Below, one piece after another: positions 24,927-36,966 of a DNA stretch of 64,000 nt. The notes beneath the pieces are model-generated. The model did not search any database and had not been told where the DNA came from. It worked only from the letters and a program-made list of their open reading frames with translations. The stretch comes from Anaeromyxobacter diazotrophicus. Lineage in GTDB: Bacteria > Myxococcota > Myxococcia > Myxococcales > Anaeromyxobacteraceae. The stretch's first letter is position 1. The number at the start of each line of letters is the position of its first letter. Location of the stretch: positions 62,001-126,000 of the forward strand of contig NZ_BJTG01000001.1 of NCBI RefSeq assembly GCF_013340205.1, read 5' to 3'. The translations under genes were made by a program, and so were the position numbers.

Positions 24927-26321
24927 CTACCCCCTCCTCATCGACCGCGCCAGCTCGTCGTAGAGGTGGATGGCGCTGCGGGTGGCCTTGGCGAGGTCGC
25001 CCAGGTGCAGGCTCTCGTTCTCCGAGTGGGCGTTGGTGTACGGATCCTCCACCCCGATGAGCAGGGCCGGCACGCCGCCCAGCTCCTTCGCGAACGGCTC
25101 GACGAAGCCGATCGACCCGCCGCAGCCGATGGCCAGCGGCTCGCGCCCGTAGCCCTGCTGGAGCGCGCGGAAGGCGGCCTGGAACGCCGGGTGCGAGGTG
25201 TCGGTCTTCCAGGCCGGGCCGGCGGTCGCGACGTCGAGCTTCACCTCCAGCCCCCAGGGCACCGCCTGCCGCAGCGCCGCGCAGAGCCGGTCGGCGACGT
25301 CCTGCGGGTCCATGTCGGGGACGATCCGGACCCCCACCCTCGCCCACGCGACGTCGTTCACGATGTTGCGCGCGTCGCGGCGGCTGGAGGCCTGGATGGC
25401 GTTCACGGCCAGCGCGGGCTGCCACCAGTTGGTCTCCCACGGGGGCCGCCCGCCCAGGAGCTGCGCGCCGGGCACGAGCCCCACCTGGCGGCGGAAGTCG
25501 GCGTCGGTGGTGGGGAGGCGCTCCAGGCTGCGCCGCTCGTCGGCGGTGAGCGGGCGCACCTTGTCGTAGATCCCCGGGATCGCGATCCGCCCCTGGGCGT
25601 CCACCAGGCCGGCCAGCATCTTCGCCAGCGCCAGCGCCGGGTCGGGGATGGGGCCGCCCCACATCCCGGAGTGCACGCTCTGCTTGAGCGCCCGCACCTC
25701 GACGTCCACCGTCACCAGGCCGCGCAGCGCGATGGTGACCGACGGCACGCCGGTGTCGAAGTTCCCCGTGTCGGTGAGCACCATCGCGTCCGCGTCGAGC
25801 CGCGCCCGGTACTTGCGCAGGAAGGCGGCCAGGTGCTCGGACCCGATCTCCTCCTCCCCCTCGATGAGGATCCGCACGTTGACCGGGACCTCGCCGGCGC
25901 CCCGCACCCAGCTGTCGACCGCGGCGGCGTGGACGAGGATGCCCGACTTGTCGTCCGCCGCGCCGCGGCCGTACAGCCGGCCGTCGCGCTCGGTCGGCTC
26001 GAACGGGGGCGACTTCCAGGCCTCCTCCTCGCCCGGCGGCTGCACGTCGTGGTGGGCGTAGAGGAGCAGCGTCGGCGCCTTCGGGTCGCGCAGGCGCTCG
26101 CCGTAGACGTACGGGTGCGCGCCCTCGACGGTGAGGACCTCCACCCGCTCGAACCCCCGCCGCGCGAGCAGCGCCGCCACCGCCTCGGCGCTCCGCTTCA
26201 CCTCCGCCGCCGGGAAGCCGTCGAAGGAGACGCTCGGGATGCGGACCAGGGCCGCGAGGTCCTCCTGGTAGGCGGCGGCGTGGGCGGCGTGGTGGGCGAG
26301 GGCCTTGTCGATGTCGGGCAC
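24927..26321 (-). CDS. M20-family metallopeptidase (dipeptidase type)
   Basis: 464 residues from GTG 26321, chosen for its GGAGGAGAA box and because the upstream codons give low-complexity sequence. M20 enzymes are di-zinc hydrolases of dipeptides or N-acyl amino acids. The zinc ligands sit in [29 protein letters not shown] and [13 protein letters not shown], with further conserved DTGNFDTG and the late motif [16 protein letters not shown] dimerisation or lid domain occupies the middle ([13 protein letters not shown]). The length and motif spacing match the ArgE/DapE/CPG2 subgroup that includes carnosinase-like dipeptidases. No signal peptide, so cytoplasmic. It is 3 bases upstream of glgP and 74 bases from the divergent ycaO gene. 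Confidence 0.9.
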
Positions 26322-26395: not shown

Positions 26396-27553
26396 ATGCC
26401 CGGCACCGCCTCACGGCCGCGTCGCGACGCCGCCCCCCCCGTGCCCGCCCGCCTGGCGCGGGCGCTGGGCGTGACGCGGGTGGCGCGCGTGACCGACCTC
26501 GACCGGGCGGGGGTGGAGGTGGCCTGCGCCGTCCGGCCCGCCGGCCACGTGCTCCAGGTGACGAACGGGAAGGGGCTCCGGTTCGAGGACGCGGCGCGCG
26601 GCGCGCTCCTGGAGGCGGCCGAGCTCGCCTGCGCCGAGGCGGTCGAGACCTCCAGCCTGCGCTGGGCCAGCGCGGACGAGCTGGCCGCCCGCGGGGAGGC
26701 GCACCTCGCCCCCGCCGACCTGGGCGGCGCGGCCGCGGGCGGGCTCAGGCTCGCCTGGCGCGGCGGCGTCGACCTCCTCGGCTCGCAAAGCGTCCTCGTG
26801 CCGGCGGCGGCCGTCCAGGCGCCGCCCCAGGGCGGCCCGGCGCTCGGGCTCGCCGGCCTGCGCTGGACCTCGAACGGCATGGGGGCGCACCCTTCGCGCG
26901 AGGCGGCCCTGGCGCACGCGCTGCTCGAGGCGGCGGAGCGGCACGCCCTGGCGCAGGCCCTGCCGGAGGGCTGGGACGAGGAGGCGTGCGCGCGGTTCCG
27001 GCTGGCGGCCCCCGCGCGGCGGGCGCCGCGCGCGGCGGGCCTGGCGCGGCAGCTCGCCGGGCGCGGCCTCGACGCGCACCTGTTCCAGCTCCCCACGGAG
27101 CTGGGCCTGCCGCTCGCAGCGGCGCTCCTCTTCGACCGCGAGGAGGGGCCGGTGCCGCTCACGGCCGGCTACGCCTGCCGGCCCGACCTCGCGGGCGCAG
27201 CGCTGGCGGCGCTGCTGGAGGCGGCCCAGTCGCGCCTCACCGACATCCACGGCGCGCGGGAGGACGTCGGGCCGGCCGACCGCAGCGGGGCGGAGCGGCT
27301 GCGGAGGGCGTGCGGGAGGGGAGGCCGCGAGGCCGACCGCGACCGCGGCGGCGACCTCGACCGCGATGCCGACCGCGACCGCGGAGGCGACCGCGACACC
27401 GGGCAGGACCGGGGGAGCGTCCGCGCCCTCCTCGCCCACCTCCGCCGCGCCGGCTTCGACCGGGCGGTGGCGGTGGAGCTCGCCCCGGAGGCGCTGGGGG
27501 TGCACGTGGTGAAGGTGCTCGTGCCCGGGTTCGCCTGCTCGGAGCTCCTGTGA
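26396..27553 (+). CDS. YcaO-domain protein (TfuA-associated type)
   Basis: 385 residues. YcaO proteins use ATP to activate backbone amides; together with TfuA partners they install thioamides. The YcaO fold is clear: the first glutamate helix [40 protein letters not shown] followed by [14 protein letters not shown], and [20 protein letters not shown], the last being a hallmark of TfuA-linked YcaO proteins. The Glu residues in those helices match Mg-ATP ligands. Between this block and the C-terminal strand lies an Asp/Arg-rich insert of about 36 residues made by a 36-bp tandem duplication. The C-terminus ([17 protein letters not shown]) is not the PxPxP tail of azoline-forming YcaOs. No ribosome-binding site is seen before the ATG. 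It overlaps tfuA by 4 bases. Confidence 0.9.
27332..27403 (+). repeat. 36-bp in-frame tandem duplication inside ycaO
   Basis: Two adjacent 36-base units (27332-27367 and 27368-27403) share the opening GCCGACCGCGACCGCGG and encode [12 protein letters not shown] and [12 protein letters not shown]. The units are built of smaller GACCGC hexamers. The length is a multiple of three, so the frame is kept. It expands a charged loop between the last catalytic helix and the C-terminal strand. Confidence 0.8.
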
Positions 27554-28722
27554 GCCGCGGCGGGCTCGTCGTGTTCCTCGGCCCGTCGCTTCCGGCGCGC
27601 GAGGCGCGGCGGATCGCGCGCTGCACCGTGCTGCCCCCGGCGCGACAGGGCGACGTGTGGCGCGCGCTGACGCGCCGGCCCGCGGCGCTGGCGCTGGTGG
27701 ACGGCGTGTTCGAGAGCGTCCCCTCGGTGTGGCACCACGAGCTCCTCGATGCGCTCCACGCCGGGGTGGCGGTGTTCGGGGGCGGCAGCATGGGCGCGCT
27801 GCGGGCCGCGGAGCTGTCCGGGCGCGGGATGGTCGGGGTCGGGCGCGTCTTCGGCTGGTACCGGGACGGCCTCCTCCGCGGGGACGACGAGGTGGCGCTG
27901 CTCCACGCCGGGCCGGAGCTCGGCTTCCGGGCGCTCACGCTGCCGCTCGTCACCGTCCGCGCGACCGCCGAGCTGGCGCGCGGCCGGCGGCTCCTCTCCG
28001 CGCGGGAGGCCTCGGCGCTCGTCGCCGCCGCGGCGGCGATCTTCTACCAGGAGCGCACCTGGCGGGCGGTGCTCGCCGCGGCCGCGCCGCGGCTGCGCCC
28101 CCGCGCCCGCGCCGCCCTCCAGGCGCTCGTGCGCGCCGGCGCCCCCGACCCCAAGGCCGAGGACGCCCGCGCCACCATCGCCGCCGCCGCCGCCTTCGTC
28201 CGGGGCGGCGCCTCGCTCGCGCCCGCCGGCGACCCGCCGCGCCCCTCGTCGCTCGTGCGCCGGCGGAAGCTCTCCGGCGCGCTGGCGGTCGCGCGCGGGG
28301 CGGCGATCCCGGCCGGCGAGGTGCTGGCGCGGGTCGGGGCGCAGGCGCGGGCCGCGGCGCTGCGCGACGACGGCCTCCGGCGGGCGCTCCTGGCCGGCTT
28401 CGCCCGCGCCCTGGGGCTCGCCGCCAGCCCCGCGGAGCGCGGCGCGGCGGCGGACGCGTTCTTCGCCGCCCGGCGGATCCGGCGCGGCGGCCGCGAGGCG
28501 GCCCTGGCGGCGCTCGCGCTCGACGGCGCCGACGCGCGGCGGCTCTTCGACGACCTGGCGCTGGAGCGCCTGCTCCTGGACGCGGCGGCGCGCGCGGTGC
28601 CTGACGGCCCGTCGCCGGACGAGGGCCTGGCGCTCGGCGCGCGGCTGTCGGGCGACTTCGCGCGGGCAGCGGAGGAGCTCGCGCGGCGGCCGCGCCGCGC
28701 GGGCCGGAGGAGGTCGCGATGA
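27550..28722 (+). CDS. TfuA-like protein
   Basis: 390 residues; its GTG overlaps the ycaO stop codon as GTGA. TfuA proteins are partners of YcaO and stimulate thioamide formation, for example in thioviridamide-type peptides and on methyl-coenzyme M reductase in methanogens. The TfuA core is at the N-terminus: GLVVFLGPSLPAREARRI, then ALALVDGVFESVPSVWHHEL and FGGGSMGALRAAEL, followed by GRVFGWYRDGLLRGDDEVAL with LLHAGPELGFRALTLPLVTV. Residues ~130-390 form a long Ala/Arg-rich helical domain of the type seen in larger bacterial TfuA proteins (RRLLSAREASALV, AAAAIFYQERTWRAV). No signal peptide. The stop codon overlaps the SUI1 gene start as ATGA, so all three genes are translationally coupled. 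Confidence 0.88.
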   Translation: MSRGGLVVFLGPSLPAREARRIARCTVLPPARQGDVWRALTRRPAALALVDGVFESVPSVWHHELLDALHAGVAVFGGGSMGALRAAELSGRGMVGVGRVFGWYRDGLLRGDDEVALLHAGPELGFRALTLPLVTVRATAELARGRRLLSAREASALVAAAAAIFYQERTWRAVLAAAAPRLRPRARAALQALVRAGAPDPKAEDARATIAAAAAFVRGGASLAPAGDPPRPSSLVRRRKLSGALAVARGAAIPAGEVLARVGAQARAAALRDDGLRRALLAGFARALGLAASPAERGAAADAFFAARRIRRGGREAALAALALDGADARRLFDDLALERLLLDAAARAVPDGPSPDEGLALGARLSGDFARAAEELARRPRRAGRRRSR

Positions 28723-29096
28723 AGAAGCGGAGCGCGGACGCGGCTCCCCCGGAGGGGAAGCCCTTTCACAACCCGTTCGGCGGGCTGGCCGAGCGGCTCG
28801 GCATGACGCCGGCCCCGGAGGCGCAGCGCGCGCCCCCGGCGCCCGAGGCCCGCCCGGCGCCCGCGCGCGCGGTGGTGCGCCTCGAGCGCAAGGGGCGCGG
28901 CGGGAAGGAGGCGACGATCGTCGAGAAGCTCGAGCTCGGCGCCGCCGAGCGGGACCGGTGGCTGAAGGAGCTGAAGCAGGCGCTCGGCTGCGGCGGAGCC
29001 GTCGAGGGCGAGGCGCTCGTGCTGCAGGGCGATCTGCGCGAGCGCGTGAAGGCGCTGCTCGAGCGCCGCGGCGTGCGCAAGGTCACCGTCGGCTGA
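28719..29096 (+). CDS. SUI1/YciH-family translation initiation factor homologue
   Basis: 125 residues. Bacterial YciH is a homologue of eukaryotic eIF1 and archaeal aIF1, small proteins that bind the 30S subunit near the P site and affect start-codon choice; the bacterial role is not settled. The SUI1 fold covers the C-terminal two thirds: VVRLERKGRGGKEATIVEKL, LKQALGCGGAVEGEALVLQG, DLRERVKALLERRGVRKVTV, ending in Gly. The first ~45 residues are a Pro/Ala-rich arm (HNPFGGLAERLGM is its only ordered-looking part). It is the third gene of the ycaO-tfuA unit and is joined to tfuA by a 4-base overlap, so it is made in step with the modifying enzymes. Confidence 0.88.
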   Translation: MKKRSADAAPPEGKPFHNPFGGLAERLGMTPAPEAQRAPPAPEARPAPARAVVRLERKGRGGKEATIVEKLELGAAERDRWLKELKQALGCGGAVEGEALVLQGDLRERVKALLERRGVRKVTVG

Positions 29097-29137: not shown

Positions 29138-29734
29138 GTGGAGCGCACCCGCACCCTGGTCGTGGCCGCCGACCCGCTCGCGCGCAGCGGGCTCGCGGCG
29201 CTGCTCGGGCGCCGCCCCGAGCTGGAGGTGGTGGGCGCCGTCGCGCCCGGCGACCCTCCACCCGGCGGCGCCGAGGTCGCGCTGTGGGACCTCGCCGGGG
29301 ACGAGCTCCCCGAGCTGGGCCGGGCGGCGGCGGTGCCGCCGGCGGTGGCGCTGGTGGCGAGCGAGGAGCAGGCCGCGGCGGCCCTCGCCGCCGGCGCCCG
29401 GGGGCTCGTGTTCCGGGACGGCGGCGAGGAGCGGCTGGCGGCGGCGCTGGTGGCGGCTGCCCGCGGCCTCGTGGCGCTCGACGCGCCGCTCGCGGGCTGG
29501 CTCCGTCCGCCCCCGGCGGCGGCCGCCGCGGCCGGCGAGCACCTCACCCCGCGGGAGCTGGAGGCGCTGCAGCTCCTCGCGGAGGGGCTCTCGAACCGCG
29601 CCATCGCCCTCCGGCTCGGCGTCTCGGAGCGCACCGCCAAGTTCCACGTCGAGGCGGTCCTCGGCAAGCTCGGCGCGGAGAGCCGCAGCGAGGCCATCGT
29701 CCTCGCCGCCCGCCGCGGGCTGGTCGTGCTCTGA
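29138..29734 (+). CDS. LuxR-type response regulator
   Basis: 198 residues from GTG 29138. An N-terminal receiver-like domain (TLVVAADPLARSGLAALL, phospho-acceptor candidate Asp51 in VALWDLAGDELPEL) is joined to a C-terminal LuxR/NarL helix-turn-helix (LTPRELEALQLLAEGLSNRA, IALRLGVSERTAKFHVEAVL). The receiver is degenerate: only one acidic residue precedes beta-1 loop end (Asp12) and the usual Lys is Arg in GLVFRDGGEER, so it may act without phosphorylation. It lies 41 bases behind the SUI1 gene in the same direction and could be read with the ycaO operon. The next gene is the 3' end of an HNH endonuclease on the other strand. Confidence 0.85.
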   Translation: MERTRTLVVAADPLARSGLAALLGRRPELEVVGAVAPGDPPPGGAEVALWDLAGDELPELGRAAAVPPAVALVASEEQAAAALAAGARGLVFRDGGEERLAAALVAAARGLVALDAPLAGWLRPPPAAAAAAGEHLTPRELEALQLLAEGLSNRAIALRLGVSERTAKFHVEAVLGKLGAESRSEAIVLAARRGLVVL

Positions 29735-31825: not shown

Positions 31826-32743
31826 ATGGCGAGCGACATCGGAATCGAGCTGGGGCGCGCGGCGGCGGCGGCGGCGAAGCGGGCGGCCGCGTCGGTGGTG
31901 CGGATCGACGGCGGCGCGCGGTACTCGGCGTCGGGGGTGGTCTGGTCGGCCGACGGCGTCGTGGTCACCGCCGGCCACGGGCTGCACGGCGCGGACGAGG
32001 TGGCGCTCGGGCTGCCGGACGGCTCCGCCGCCCGCGGCGAGGTGGCGGGGCGCGATCCGGCGACCGACCTGGCGGTGGTGCGCACGGGCGCGTCCGGCCT
32101 CGCGCCCGCGGCCTGGGCGGAGGGCGAGCCGGAGGTGGGCGAGCTCGTGCTGGCGGTCACCCGCCCCGGCCGCGGCCCGCGCGCCGGGCTCGGGGTGGTG
32201 GCGCGCACCGGCGGCGCCTGGCGCACCGCCGGCGGCGGCCCGGTCGACCGCTACGTCGAGCTCGACGTGGCGCTGCAGCCGGGGTTCTCGGGCGGCCTCG
32301 CCGCCGACCTGGCCGGGCGCGGCGTGGGGCTCACCAGCGCCGGCCTCGTCCGCGGCACCGCGCTGGCGGTGCCGCCCCCCACGCTCCGCCGCGTGGTCGA
32401 GGCGATCCTCGCGCACGGCGAGGTGCGGCGCGGCTACCTGGGCCTCGCGAGCCTGCCGGTGCGGTTGCCGCCGAGGGCGGCCGCGCTGGCGGGGCAGGAG
32501 ACGGCGCTCCTCGTGACCGCGGTGGAGGAGGAGAGCCCGGCCGGGCGCGCCGGCCTCGGCTTGGGCGATCTGCTCCTGGCGCTGGGCGGCGCGCCGCTGG
32601 CCGACCTGTCGGATCTGTGGCCGGCGCTGGAGGAGGCGCGGATCGGGAGCGCGGTGCGCGCGCGGTTCGTCCGAGGAGGCGCGGTCCAGGAGGCGGAGCT
32701 CGTCGTCGGCGTGCGGGAGCGGGCGCGGGGGGCGCGGCCGTGA
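31826..32743 (+). CDS. Trypsin-like serine protease with PDZ domain, HtrA-like (first of pair)
   Basis: 305 residues from ATG 31826. A chymotrypsin-fold protease domain has the triad His51 (VVTAGHGLHG), Asp81 (DPATDLAVV) and Ser155 (QPGFSGG, where most HtrA proteins have GNSGG). A single PDZ domain follows (RRGYLGLASLPVRL, ESPAGRAGLGLGDLLLALGG). HtrA/Deg proteases handle misfolded proteins and are normally exported, but this protein has no signal peptide or membrane helix: it opens with SDIGIELGRAAAAAAKRAAA. It is therefore predicted to act in the cytoplasm. The end overlaps the second protease gene as GTGA, so the two are made together and may form mixed oligomers. Confidence 0.85.
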   Translation: MASDIGIELGRAAAAAAKRAAASVVRIDGGARYSASGVVWSADGVVVTAGHGLHGADEVALGLPDGSAARGEVAGRDPATDLAVVRTGASGLAPAAWAEGEPEVGELVLAVTRPGRGPRAGLGVVARTGGAWRTAGGGPVDRYVELDVALQPGFSGGLAADLAGRGVGLTSAGLVRGTALAVPPPTLRRVVEAILAHGEVRRGYLGLASLPVRLPPRAAALAGQETALLVTAVEEESPAGRAGLGLGDLLLALGGAPLADLSDLWPALEEARIGSAVRARFVRGGAVQEAELVVGVRERARGARP

Positions 32744-33645
32744 CGGCGCTCGGAGCGCTCTCGCGCGACCTCGAGGCGCTGGTCGCGCGCGCCGCGCCCT
32801 CGGTGGTCGGCGTCGAGCAGCGGCGCGGGCACGGCTCGGGGTTCGTCCTCGCGCCCGACGGCTACCTGCTCACCAACGCGCACGTCGCGCGCGGGGCGGA
32901 GCCGCTCCACGTCCGGCGCTCCGGCTCCGAGCCGCTGCCGGCGGAGCGGGTGGGTCTCGACGCGCGCACCGATCTGGCGGTGCTGCGGGTGCCCGCGTCC
33001 GGCCTCGCGCCGCTCGCGCTGGCGGACCGCCGGCCCCTCGCGCCAGGCGCGCTGGTGATCGCCATCGGCAACCCGCTCGGCTTCGAGCGCTCGGTCACGA
33101 TGGGCGTCGTCTCGGCGCTCTACCGCACGCTCCCGGCCCCGGACGGCGGCGCGCTCGACGGGTTGCTCCAGACCGACGCGGCGGTGAACCCGGGGAACTC
33201 GGGCGGCCCGCTCCTCTCGGCGGAGGGCGAGGTGGTGGGCGTCACCACCGCCATGCTGCCCTGGGCGCACGGCATGGCCTTCGCCATCCCGGCCCGGACC
33301 GCGAGCTGGGTGGCGGCGGTGCTGATCCGCGACGGGGAGGTGCGACGGCCCTACCTCGGGATCGCCGCCCGCGGGGAGGACCTCGCGCCGGCCGCGGCGT
33401 CCGCGCTGCGGCGCACCCGCGGGGTCCGCGTGCTGCGGGTGGAGGGCGGCTCGGCCGCCGAGGCCGGGGGCGTCCGGCCCGGCGACCTCCTCGCCGCGGC
33501 CAACGGCGACGACGTCGCGGCGCTCGACGACCTGCAGCGCGTGCTGGTGCTGACGCCCGCGCCCGAGCTCGCTCTCGACGTGCTGCGCGACGGGGCGCCG
33601 CTGCGGCTCGCGCTGCGCCCCGGCCCCGCCCGCCGCGCGGCGTGA
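32740..33645 (+). CDS. Trypsin-like serine protease with PDZ domain, HtrA-like (second of pair)
   Basis: 301 residues from a GTG that overlaps the previous stop codon. The triad is His48 (LLTNAHVARG), Asp78 (DARTDLAVL) and Ser154 in the canonical NPGNSGGPL. The substrate-binding region AIGNPLGFERSVTMGVVSAL and the regulatory loop around TTAMLPWAHGMAFAIP are well preserved. One PDZ domain follows (RRPYLGIAARGEDL, VRPGDLLAAANGDDVAALDD). Like its neighbour it lacks a signal peptide. It is closer to typical DegP/DegS sequences than the first protein, which suggests an ancient duplication followed by divergence of the upstream copy. Confidence 0.88.
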   Translation: MTALGALSRDLEALVARAAPSVVGVEQRRGHGSGFVLAPDGYLLTNAHVARGAEPLHVRRSGSEPLPAERVGLDARTDLAVLRVPASGLAPLALADRRPLAPGALVIAIGNPLGFERSVTMGVVSALYRTLPAPDGGALDGLLQTDAAVNPGNSGGPLLSAEGEVVGVTTAMLPWAHGMAFAIPARTASWVAAVLIRDGEVRRPYLGIAARGEDLAPAAASALRRTRGVRVLRVEGGSAAEAGGVRPGDLLAAANGDDVAALDDLQRVLVLTPAPELALDVLRDGAPLRLALRPGPARRAA

Positions 33646-34669: not shown

Positions 34670-35230
34670 CTACATGAGGCCGAGCGTGAGGCGCGCCGCC
34701 TCGGTCATCCGGCTCTGGTCCCACGGCGGGTCGAAGACGAGCTGGACGTCGACGTCGGCCACCCCCGGCACGCGCTCGACCTTGCTCCGCACGTCCTCCA
34801 CCAGCACCGGCCCGACGCCGCAGCCGGGGGCGGTGAGCGTCATGACCACGAGCACCTTCGCGCCGTCGGGCGACGGCTCGGAGGCGACGTGGTAGACGAG
34901 CCCGAGGTCGACGATGCTGGCTGGGATCTCCGGATCGTAGACGGTCTTGAGCTCGTTCCACACCTTCTGCTCGTCGAAGGGGCCCTCGCTCCGCGTCGCG
35001 CGCGCGGCCTCGGCCTTGGCGGCCAGCTCCACGTACTCGGGGCCGAGCGCGTCCGCGTCGGCGGCGAGGATGCGCGCCAGCCCGCCGCGCTCCGTCATCA
35101 CCGTGACGTTGCCGTCGAGGACCTGCTGCGGGATGACGTACGAGCCCGGCTCGAGGCGCACCAGGAAGCCGCTCGGGATCTGGGTGGCGTCGCAGCCGCG
35201 CTTGAGGAGGACGGGTTCCCTGCGCTCCAT
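34670..35230 (-). CDS. sufT: Iron-sulfur cluster assembly protein SufT
   Basis: 186 residues. SufT carries a DUF59/MIP18 domain and helps Fe-S cluster maturation or delivery. The N-terminal part (KRGCDATQIPSGFLVRLEPG, SYVIPQQVLDGNVTVMTERG) is the SufT-specific region. The C-terminal DUF59 domain has KTVYDPEIPASIVDLGLVYH, LTAPGCGVGPVLVEDVRSKV with the conserved Cys in PGCG, and VQLVFDPPWDQSRMTE. It lies 3 bases behind sufU and is the last gene of the suf operon. SufT is common at this end of suf operons in Actinobacteria, Firmicutes and some Proteobacteria. Confidence 0.93.
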   Translation of the reverse strand: MERREPVLLKRGCDATQIPSGFLVRLEPGSYVIPQQVLDGNVTVMTERGGLARILAADADALGPEYVELAAKAEAARATRSEGPFDEQKVWNELKTVYDPEIPASIVDLGLVYHVASEPSPDGAKVLVVMTLTAPGCGVGPVLVEDVRSKVERVPGVADVDVQLVFDPPWDQSRMTEAARLTLGLM

Positions 35231-35233
35231 CGT

Positions 35234-35686
35234 CTACTCCGTGGTGACGACCTTCTGCTGGGTGGCGAGCGCGTTCCGGAGCGTGTGCCAGACGAGGCTC
35301 GCGCACTTGACGCGGGTGGGGAACTCGCAGACGCCCGAGAGCGCCGCCAGCTTCCCCAGCTCGGAGGCGGGCACCTTGTCCGGCCCCTCGGTCACGAGGG
35401 TGTGGAAGCGCGAGAAGAGCTGCTCCGCCTCCGCCACGGTGTGGCCCTTCACCGCCGAGGTCATGAGGGAGGCGGAGGCCTTCGAGATGGCGCAGCCGGA
35501 GCCCTCGAAGGCGATGTCCTGGATGCGCTCCCCGTCGAGCTTCACGTAGAGCTTGAAGTGATCGCCGCAGAGGGGGTTCAGGCCCTCCGCCTGCCGGTCG
35601 GCGTCCGGGATGACCCGGAAGTTCCTCGGCTTGCGGCCGTGGTCGAGGATCACCTCCTGGTACAGGTCGTCCAGTTCCGAGCTCAT
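35234..35686 (-). CDS. sufU: SUF system scaffold/sulfur-transfer protein SufU
   Basis: 150 residues from ATG 35686, which overlaps the sufS stop codon as ATGA. SufU takes persulfide sulfur from SufS, with a Zn site that depends on three cysteines and an Asp. All are present: LNPLCGDHFKLYVKLDG, EGSGCAISKASASLM, and CEFPTRVKCASLVWHTL. The RVKCA Cys with the insert before it marks SufU, as opposed to IscU. The opening LDDLYQEVILDHGRKPRNF is characteristic. With SufS it should form the sulfur-donating pair for SufBCD. Confidence 0.95.
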   Translation of the reverse strand: MSSELDDLYQEVILDHGRKPRNFRVIPDADRQAEGLNPLCGDHFKLYVKLDGERIQDIAFEGSGCAISKASASLMTSAVKGHTVAEAEQLFSRFHTLVTEGPDKVPASELGKLAALSGVCEFPTRVKCASLVWHTLRNALATQQKVVTTE

Positions 35687-36966
35687 GCGAACATCCTTCT
35701 CACCTTCTCGAGTCCCGCCGCCAGGGCGTCGATCTCGGCGGTCGTATTGTAGATCCCCAGCGACGCGCGCGCCGTGGCGGGCACGCCGAGGCGCGCCATG
35801 AGCGGCTGGGCGCAGTGGTGGCCGGTGCGGATGGCGATCCCCTCGCGGTCGAGGACGGTCCCGATGTCGTGCGGGTGGATGTCGTCCATCACGAACGACA
35901 GGACGGCCGCCTTGCCCGGCGCCGTGCCCAGGATCCGCAGCCCGGGGATGCGGCCGAGCTGCTCCGTGCCGTAGGCGAGCACCTCGTCCTCGTGGCGCCA
36001 GGCCGCCTCCCGCGGCAGGGCCTCCAGCCAGTCGAGCGCCGCGCCGAGCCCCACCGCCCCCGCCATGTTGGGCGTCCCCGCCTCGAACTTGTAGGGGATC
36101 TGGTTGTAGATGGTCTTCTCGAAGGCCACCGAGAGGATCATGTCGCCGCCGCCCTGCCAGGGCGGCATGGCCTCGAGGTGCTCGGCCCGCCCGTAGAGCA
36201 CGCCGATGCCGGTCGGCCCGTAGATCTTGTGCCCGCTGAACGCGTAGAAGTCGCAGCCGAGGTCCTGCACGTCGGCCGGGACGTGCGGCGCGCCCTGCGC
36301 CCCGTCCACCAGCACCGGCACCCCGCGGGCGTGGGCCAGCTCGACGACGCGCTTCACCGGGTTCACGGTGCCGAGCGCGTTCGACACGTGCGACACCGCC
36401 ACGAGGCGCGTGCGCGGGCCGATGCGCCTCTCGAGCTCGTCGAGGAGGAGCACCCCGCGGTCGTCGATGGGCGCCACCACCAGCTTCGCGCCCTTCTCCT
36501 CGCACAGCATCTGCCAGGGGACGATGTTGGAGTGGTGCTCCATGGCGGAGACGAGCACCTCGTCGCCCGCGCCCACCCGCTGCTTGCCGAAGGTGAAGGC
36601 GACCAGGTTGATGGCCTCGGTCGTGCCGCGCACGAAGACGATCTCGCGCGACTCGCGCGCGTTGAGGAACCGGCGCACCCGTTCGCGCGCGCCCTCGTAG
36701 GAGGCGGTCGCCTTCTCGGACAGGAAGTGCACGCCGCGGTGCACGTTGGCGTTCTCCTGGTCGAAGAAGCGCGCCATCGCCTCCACCACCTGGCGCGGGC
36801 GCTGGGTGGTGGCGGCGCTGTCGAGGTAGACGAGCGGCTTGCCGCGCACGGGCCGGGCCAGGATGGGGAAGTCGCAGCGCACGCGCTCGACGTCGAACCC
36901 GTCGGCGACCGGCTTGTGCAGCGTCACCACTTCCGCCTCGGGCGGGCTGGGATGGACCACCCTCAT
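35683..36966 (-). CDS. sufS: Cysteine desulfurase SufS
   Basis: 427 residues from ATG 36966, overlapping the sufD stop as ATGA. It is a PLP enzyme that takes sulfur from cysteine. The class-II desulfurase core is complete: VYLDSAATTQRPRQVVEAM, NANVHRGVHFLSEKATASYE, VSAMEHHSNIVPWQ, DGAQGAPHVPADVQDLGCDF, the PLP-binding Lys in YAFSGHKIYGPTG (about residue 240) and the persulfide Cys in RTGHHCAQPLM (about residue 380). The short Cys-loop RTGHHCAQPLM marks the SufS group. The N-terminal 25 residues before the enzyme core are variable. Confidence 0.96.
   Translation of the reverse strand: MRVVHPSPPEAEVVTLHKPVADGFDVERVRCDFPILARPVRGKPLVYLDSAATTQRPRQVVEAMARFFDQENANVHRGVHFLSEKATASYEGARERVRRFLNARESREIVFVRGTTEAINLVAFTFGKQRVGAGDEVLVSAMEHHSNIVPWQMLCEEKGAKLVVAPIDDRGVLLLDELERRIGPRTRLVAVSHVSNALGTVNPVKRVVELAHARGVPVLVDGAQGAPHVPADVQDLGCDFYAFSGHKIYGPTGIGVLYGRAEHLEAMPPWQGGGDMILSVAFEKTIYNQIPYKFEAGTPNMAGAVGLGAALDWLEALPREAAWRHEDEVLAYGTEQLGRIPGLRILGTAPGKAAVLSFVMDDIHPHDIGTVLDREGIAIRTGHHCAQPLMARLGVPATARASLGIYNTTAEIDALAAGLEKVRRMFA

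Follow-up and report, generated by a model that had tools for sequence, protein, structure and literature searches.

What does a YcaO-TfuA gene pair modify when its immediate neighbor encodes a translation-factor-like SUI1 protein and no gene for a precursor peptide is found beside it? This question is raised by a locus of Anaeromyxobacter diazotrophicus located in the window that we analyzed (the whole stretch of 64,000 nucleotides), in which the genes for YcaO, TfuA and a SUI1-fold protein are joined by 4-nt overlaps (GTGA and ATGA). This arrangement and the firm Pfam identities of the three proteins agree with the original prediction, which had proposed that the pair modifies a protein or a ribosomal component rather than a secreted peptide and had seen in the SUI1 gene a hint at the translation apparatus. 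The features of the window that bear on this question are the following:

24927..26321, minus strand: M20-family metallopeptidase, divergent neighbor (Pfam PF01546, 6.7e-31; NCBIfam PRK07907)
26396..27553, plus strand: YcaO-domain protein of 385 aa, core myxobacterial clade (Pfam PF02624, 1.3e-54)
27550..28722, plus strand: TfuA, 390 aa (Pfam PF07812, 5.9e-40)
28719..29096, plus strand: SUI1-superfamily protein of 125 aa, lineage-specific operon neighbor (Pfam PF01253, 2.4e-13)
29138..29734, plus strand: LuxR-type regulator after SUI1, marking a conserved frame of M20, pair, SUI1 and LuxR (Pfam GerE, 8.1e-18; synteny)
34670..36957, minus strand: SufT-like protein, SufU and the cysteine desulfurase SufS (NCBIfam: SufU 5.2e-47, SufS 2.5e-176, SufT-like 1.1e-59, the last just under the cut-off)

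The YcaO protein of the window scored 186.2 bits against PF02624 (cut-off 25.7) and the TfuA protein 136.2 bits against PF07812 (cut-off 30), which places them in the YcaO superfamily and the TfuA family, respectively; each is the only one of its kind that a profile search found in the genome, counted for YcaO over the Pfam cut-off. The best NCBIfam models were those of the proteins for McrA-glycine thioamidation, with 120.5 bits for YcaO (TIGR03266/NF033432 pair; equivalog cut-off of 365 not reached) and 176.4 bits for TfuA (equivalog cut-off of 235.2 not reached), and the nearest solved relatives are MJ1094 by sequence (2.4e-13) for YcaO and the Methanosarcina TfuA 6xp8 for TfuA. An AlphaFold2 model of YcaO (mean pLDDT 87) found its best Foldseek matches in a LynD-type heterocyclase (4v1v) and in methanogen YcaO (6peu/6cib). 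Residues E73, E76, E178, E181 and R182 are invariant in an alignment of 25 orthologues; the paired Glu residues among them (E73/E76 and E178/E181) presumably bind ATP and Mg, a role that we take from YcaO structures in general. The TfuA-type hallmark motif that had been read from the sequence, [12 protein letters not shown], is present as well. The protein also contains a low-complexity insert rich in Arg and Asp, [20 protein letters not shown], at about residues 311-341 (window 27327-27416), a poorly conserved spot modeled with low confidence.

The AlphaFold2 model of TfuA (mean pLDDT 92) divides the protein into an N-terminal TfuA domain (about residues 1-220) and a second, helical domain that makes up the C-terminal part (about 224-380). 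In a structural comparison of the model, the N-domain matched Methanosarcina TfuA 6xp8 with a Z score of 31.4 and 1.4 A over 215 residues; the Foldseek/VIA comparisons covered mainly this domain. Residues 224-390 of the strongly basic TfuA protein are confidently predicted as helices with a short hairpin, and the C-terminal domain is absent in genus g5. A Pfam search with this domain from 27 members gave no match beyond chance, and a sequence comparison with the PDB gave no credible one. We dismissed a SurA/chaperone-like fold for it, which appeared in a single Foldseek row (rank 13, E 1.2) and is far too weak.

Genes for TfuA are present in 109 of 195 genomes of the phylum. By alignment of orthologous YcaO proteins, the YcaO-TfuA pairs fall into a core class, whose near-complete members score at least 309 bits, and a secondary class with scores of at most 214 bits. 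The core pair was found in 108 of the 145 genomes of the order, four of these 108 being fragments at contig ends, and in 91 of the 115 genomes of good quality. In a maximum-likelihood tree, the core YcaO sequences form a clade with 100/100 support apart from the secondary ones; within it, genera cohere and families mostly do so, while the deep branches are weakly supported and family f1 appears in two pieces. The core pair is widespread and old in the Myxococcales, where it has been inherited mostly vertically, and it is mostly single-copy, whereas secondary pairs are multi-copy. Both YcaO and TfuA evolve under purifying selection, with dN/dS values of about 0.1-0.4, TfuA follows and overlaps YcaO in nearly all loci, and the 4-nt overlap of the YcaO stop with the TfuA start is kept in most loci and in all major families. 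In a scan across GTDB, the core YcaO was almost confined to Myxococcales, including Myxococcus xanthus, Corallococcus, Archangium and Anaeromyxobacter; Acanthopleuribacter and Eremiobacterota have weaker pairs of about 32% identity in which TfuA lies upstream of YcaO. We also noted the core myxobacterial pair in a database record labeled Comamonas sp. KCTC 72670, which is probably misnamed or mixed.

Loss of the core pair from several genomes of good quality, namely in genus g4 and in four near-closed genomes of genus g33 (family f6), shows that it is dispensable. The four g33 genomes (G119, G128, G130 and G131) have retained a secondary pair. The losses in g33 offer a natural comparison for the search for the substrate. 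Across the family, identity to the proteins of the window is about 52-63% for YcaO and TfuA and 70-73% for the neighboring M20 protein; the faster divergence of the pair counts against a very static substrate.

If the pair acted on a peptide, as in clusters for ribosomally synthesized and modified peptides (RiPPs), its precursor gene might be expected close by. The gaps that flank the operon, 74 bp upstream and 41 bp downstream, leave scant space for such a gene. We compared 758 uncalled open reading frames of 18-140 aa within 4-5 kb of 55 core loci and found none common to different families, which upholds the statement that no short peptide gene lies near the pair and counts against a linked RiPP precursor, in a comparison that ran without a positive control on a class of genes that differ fast. 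The neighbors of these 55 loci vary by family: an M20 peptidase in f1, a sensor/regulator pair and an oligoendopeptidase-like gene in f2, and a peroxiredoxin-like gene with other unrelated genes in f6 (those of f2 and f6 named by eye). No tailoring, export/transport or maturation gene was conserved with the core pair in the 55 loci, a neighborhood unlike that of a RiPP cluster. The secondary pairs L249, L251 and L253 of large-genome Myxococcaceae, partly examined, are likewise without an obvious precursor, so that a missing precursor is by itself weak evidence; in L249 and L251, the gene in front of the pair is very large and, by eye, protein-kinase-like.

That the pair makes a thioamidated RiPP from a precursor encoded elsewhere in the genome is therefore a reading to be weighed. 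Of the YcaO-TfuA pairs studied in bacteria to date, most have been assigned to RiPP clusters, automated mining placed Corallococcus pairs among the dominant "thioamidated RiPP" families (PMC8120280), and moderately fast divergence together with losses in some lineages is how an accessory metabolite pathway behaves. Against it stand the empty neighborhoods and the mostly single-copy, vertical inheritance that sets the core pair apart from the multi-copy secondary pairs, and we regard this reading as rather unlikely.

Proteases do occur near the operon. The original prediction had seen none within 3 kb, but the M20 metallopeptidase gene begins 74 bp upstream on the opposite strand. Because this gene keeps its position, by synteny, in a relative that has no pair at the site, the M20 metallopeptidase is probably not part of the YcaO-TfuA system. 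Two HtrA-like serine proteases (trypsin/PDZ) are encoded 2.7-4.5 kb downstream of the operon (31826-33645), in tandem and with genes that overlap by 4 nt.

The partner that had directed attention to translation is the SUI1 protein. It is a member of the SUI1 superfamily as described, but it falls short of the NCBIfam model for YciH (TIGR01158), with 64.1 bits against a cut-off of 111.65. Genes of the SUI1 family are present in 123 genomes of the order, and 22 genomes have SUI1 and no core pair. Where both occur (about 101 genomes), SUI1 adjoins the pair in 8, or in 9 if a contig break in G039 is bridged, and all these adjacencies lie in genera g1-g3 of the family of the window. Among GTDB loci, the linkage was seen in 3 of 76, two of them named Anaeromyxobacter. 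The three-gene order, which was to be looked for in other Myxococcota according to the original prediction, is thus limited to three genera of Anaeromyxobacteraceae and is broken even within the genus of the window: genome G040 has M20-SUI1-LuxR without the pair at the site and carries the pair on another contig, a case in which contamination of this metagenome assembly is a caveat. In one genome of genus g5, the order is M20-YcaO-TfuA-LuxR, with SUI1 not at the site. A lack of conserved SUI1 linkage outside the species had been named at the outset as speaking against the proposal, and beyond part of one family this is what we found. The coupling of YcaO-TfuA to SUI1 is real in one branch and gives no sign of a general functional bond.

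The C-terminal Gly of SUI1, previously suggested as a candidate site of modification, is found in most genomes whether SUI1 is linked to the pair or not; we rejected it since the SUI1 protein of G041 ends in Ser despite adjoining the pair. We considered uL16 as well, because the YcaO of E. coli thioamidates Met82 of this ribosomal protein (PMC13063428) and because the loop ETRMGTGKG of this protein is present. YcaO enzymes acting on uL16 are described as a group that does not diverge rapidly and are said to lack TfuA (PMC13063428). The E. coli enzyme is strongly acidic, with a pI of 4.4, whereas the core YcaO proteins have a median pI of 8.3 (core TfuA, 10.3) and that of the window a pI of 6.8, with TfuA adjacent. 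In 30 genomes, no difference in the uL16 loop tracked the presence of the pair; the loop is alike with and without it and hence uninformative as a signature. This loop, the non-acidic YcaO and its fast divergence leave uL16 without support as the target and concern this ribosomal protein only.

Thioamidation of a translation component, be it SUI1 (with the C-terminal Gly as one possible site) or uL16 close to the peptidyl transferase center, thus has in its favor the translational coupling in Anaeromyxobacter and relatives and the E. coli precedent. The lineage-restricted linkage and the 22 SUI1 genomes without the pair leave SUI1 or translation unsupported as the target, and the Ser end in G041, the same-genus genome with its pair elsewhere and the faster divergence of the pair than of M20 point the same way; we therefore consider this reading improbable. 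SUI1 is probably an operon passenger in one branch and not a component of thioamidation.

The bond itself might be another one. The YcaO superfamily catalyzes several reactions, and the core clade has NGxGAHP where secondary YcaO proteins have an NGLASGNH-type stretch, so that formation of an azoline, an amidine or a macroamidine, or a regulatory role, deserves mention. However, TfuA, a marker of thioamidation in the cases studied (PMC5589413, PMC6511847), overlaps YcaO in nearly all loci, the closest curated models for both proteins, albeit below their cut-offs, are those for McrA-glycine thioamidation, and the neighborhoods of the core pairs showed no E1-like partner. We give a bond other than a thioamide, or a regulatory function, a very small chance.

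Our best explanation, to which we assign about even chances, is that YcaO-TfuA is a stand-alone backbone thioamidation system that introduces a C=S bond into one cellular protein encoded elsewhere. The stand-alone reading rests on the pair keeping its own 4-nt overlap while its neighbors change by family and no precursor-like open reading frame is shared, and the chemistry would follow from homology. YcaO would bind ATP and Mg and activate the backbone amide oxygen of the substrate by phosphorylation; TfuA, together with YcaO, would deliver sulfide, for which a ThiS-type thiocarboxylated carrier is the probable donor; and the resulting C=S group would be analogous to the thioglycine of McrA or the thio-Met of uL16. 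According to the study of E. coli YcaO, ThiS-like thiocarboxylated carriers and TfuA supply sulfide in organisms living outside sulfidic places (PMC13063428), and the genome encodes a ThiS protein with a GGG C-terminal end. The SufT-like, SufU and SufS genes are part of a Suf-type cluster 5.6 kb beyond SUI1 in the window, and Suf genes lie about 1 kb beyond TfuA/SUI1 in two relatives (L042 and L044). This proximity, seen only within the family, is suggestive only, and a Suf-type cysteine desulfurase is a possible source of the sulfur. We infer both the sulfur source and the nature of the substrate, for which a cellular protein appears likelier than an unlinked peptide. The proposal that a protein rather than a secreted peptide is modified thus fits a mostly vertically inherited, precursor-less pair with changing neighbors, while its extension to SUI1 or translation does not stand.

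More specifically, and with somewhat less assurance, we suggest that Myxococcales possess a bacterial TfuA-dependent thioamidation of a specific cellular protein unrelated to McrA and uL16, in which the C-terminal domain of TfuA could help to recognize the target. In the papers that we consulted, McrA and uL16 are the only two protein targets described for YcaO thioamidation, and more are expected by the authors of the uL16 study (PMC13063428); if our reading is true, it adds a further case. We found nothing specific in the literature on the function of this pair in Myxococcus. Since a conserved precursor-less pair occurs in culturable bacteria including Myxococcus xanthus, the substrate question is directly testable, and mining that treats all YcaO-TfuA neighborhoods as thioamidated peptide clusters may miscount the whole clade.

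Among known systems, the third protein of the operon shares the SUI1 domain with YciH/SUI1 (eIF1-like) proteins and differs from them in its score below the YciH cut-off and its lineage-restricted link to the pair. The thioviridamide and thiovarsolin RiPP pairs consist of the same two enzymes and presumably perform the same chemistry, but next to the core pair, which is mostly single-copy and vertical, no genes for a precursor, for tailoring or for export are conserved. The uL16-type YcaO of E. coli and other Pseudomonadota likewise acts on a cellular protein and has no linked precursor; it carries an added TPR domain and is acidic and without TfuA, whereas the YcaO of the window is a plain, neutral to basic protein of 385 aa accompanied by TfuA. 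The YcaO-TfuA pair of methanogens, which thioamidates a Gly of McrA, is a stand-alone two-gene unit with a stop/start overlap (PMC5589413) and no precursor gene, as is the pair studied here. The two differ in that both myxobacterial proteins fall under the equivalog cut-offs, that about 170 aa form an additional domain at the C-terminus of the TfuA of the window, and that the substrate must be another one, since a myxobacterium would not be expected to have McrA. While not an equivalog member by score, the pair resembles that of the methanogens most in its way of working.
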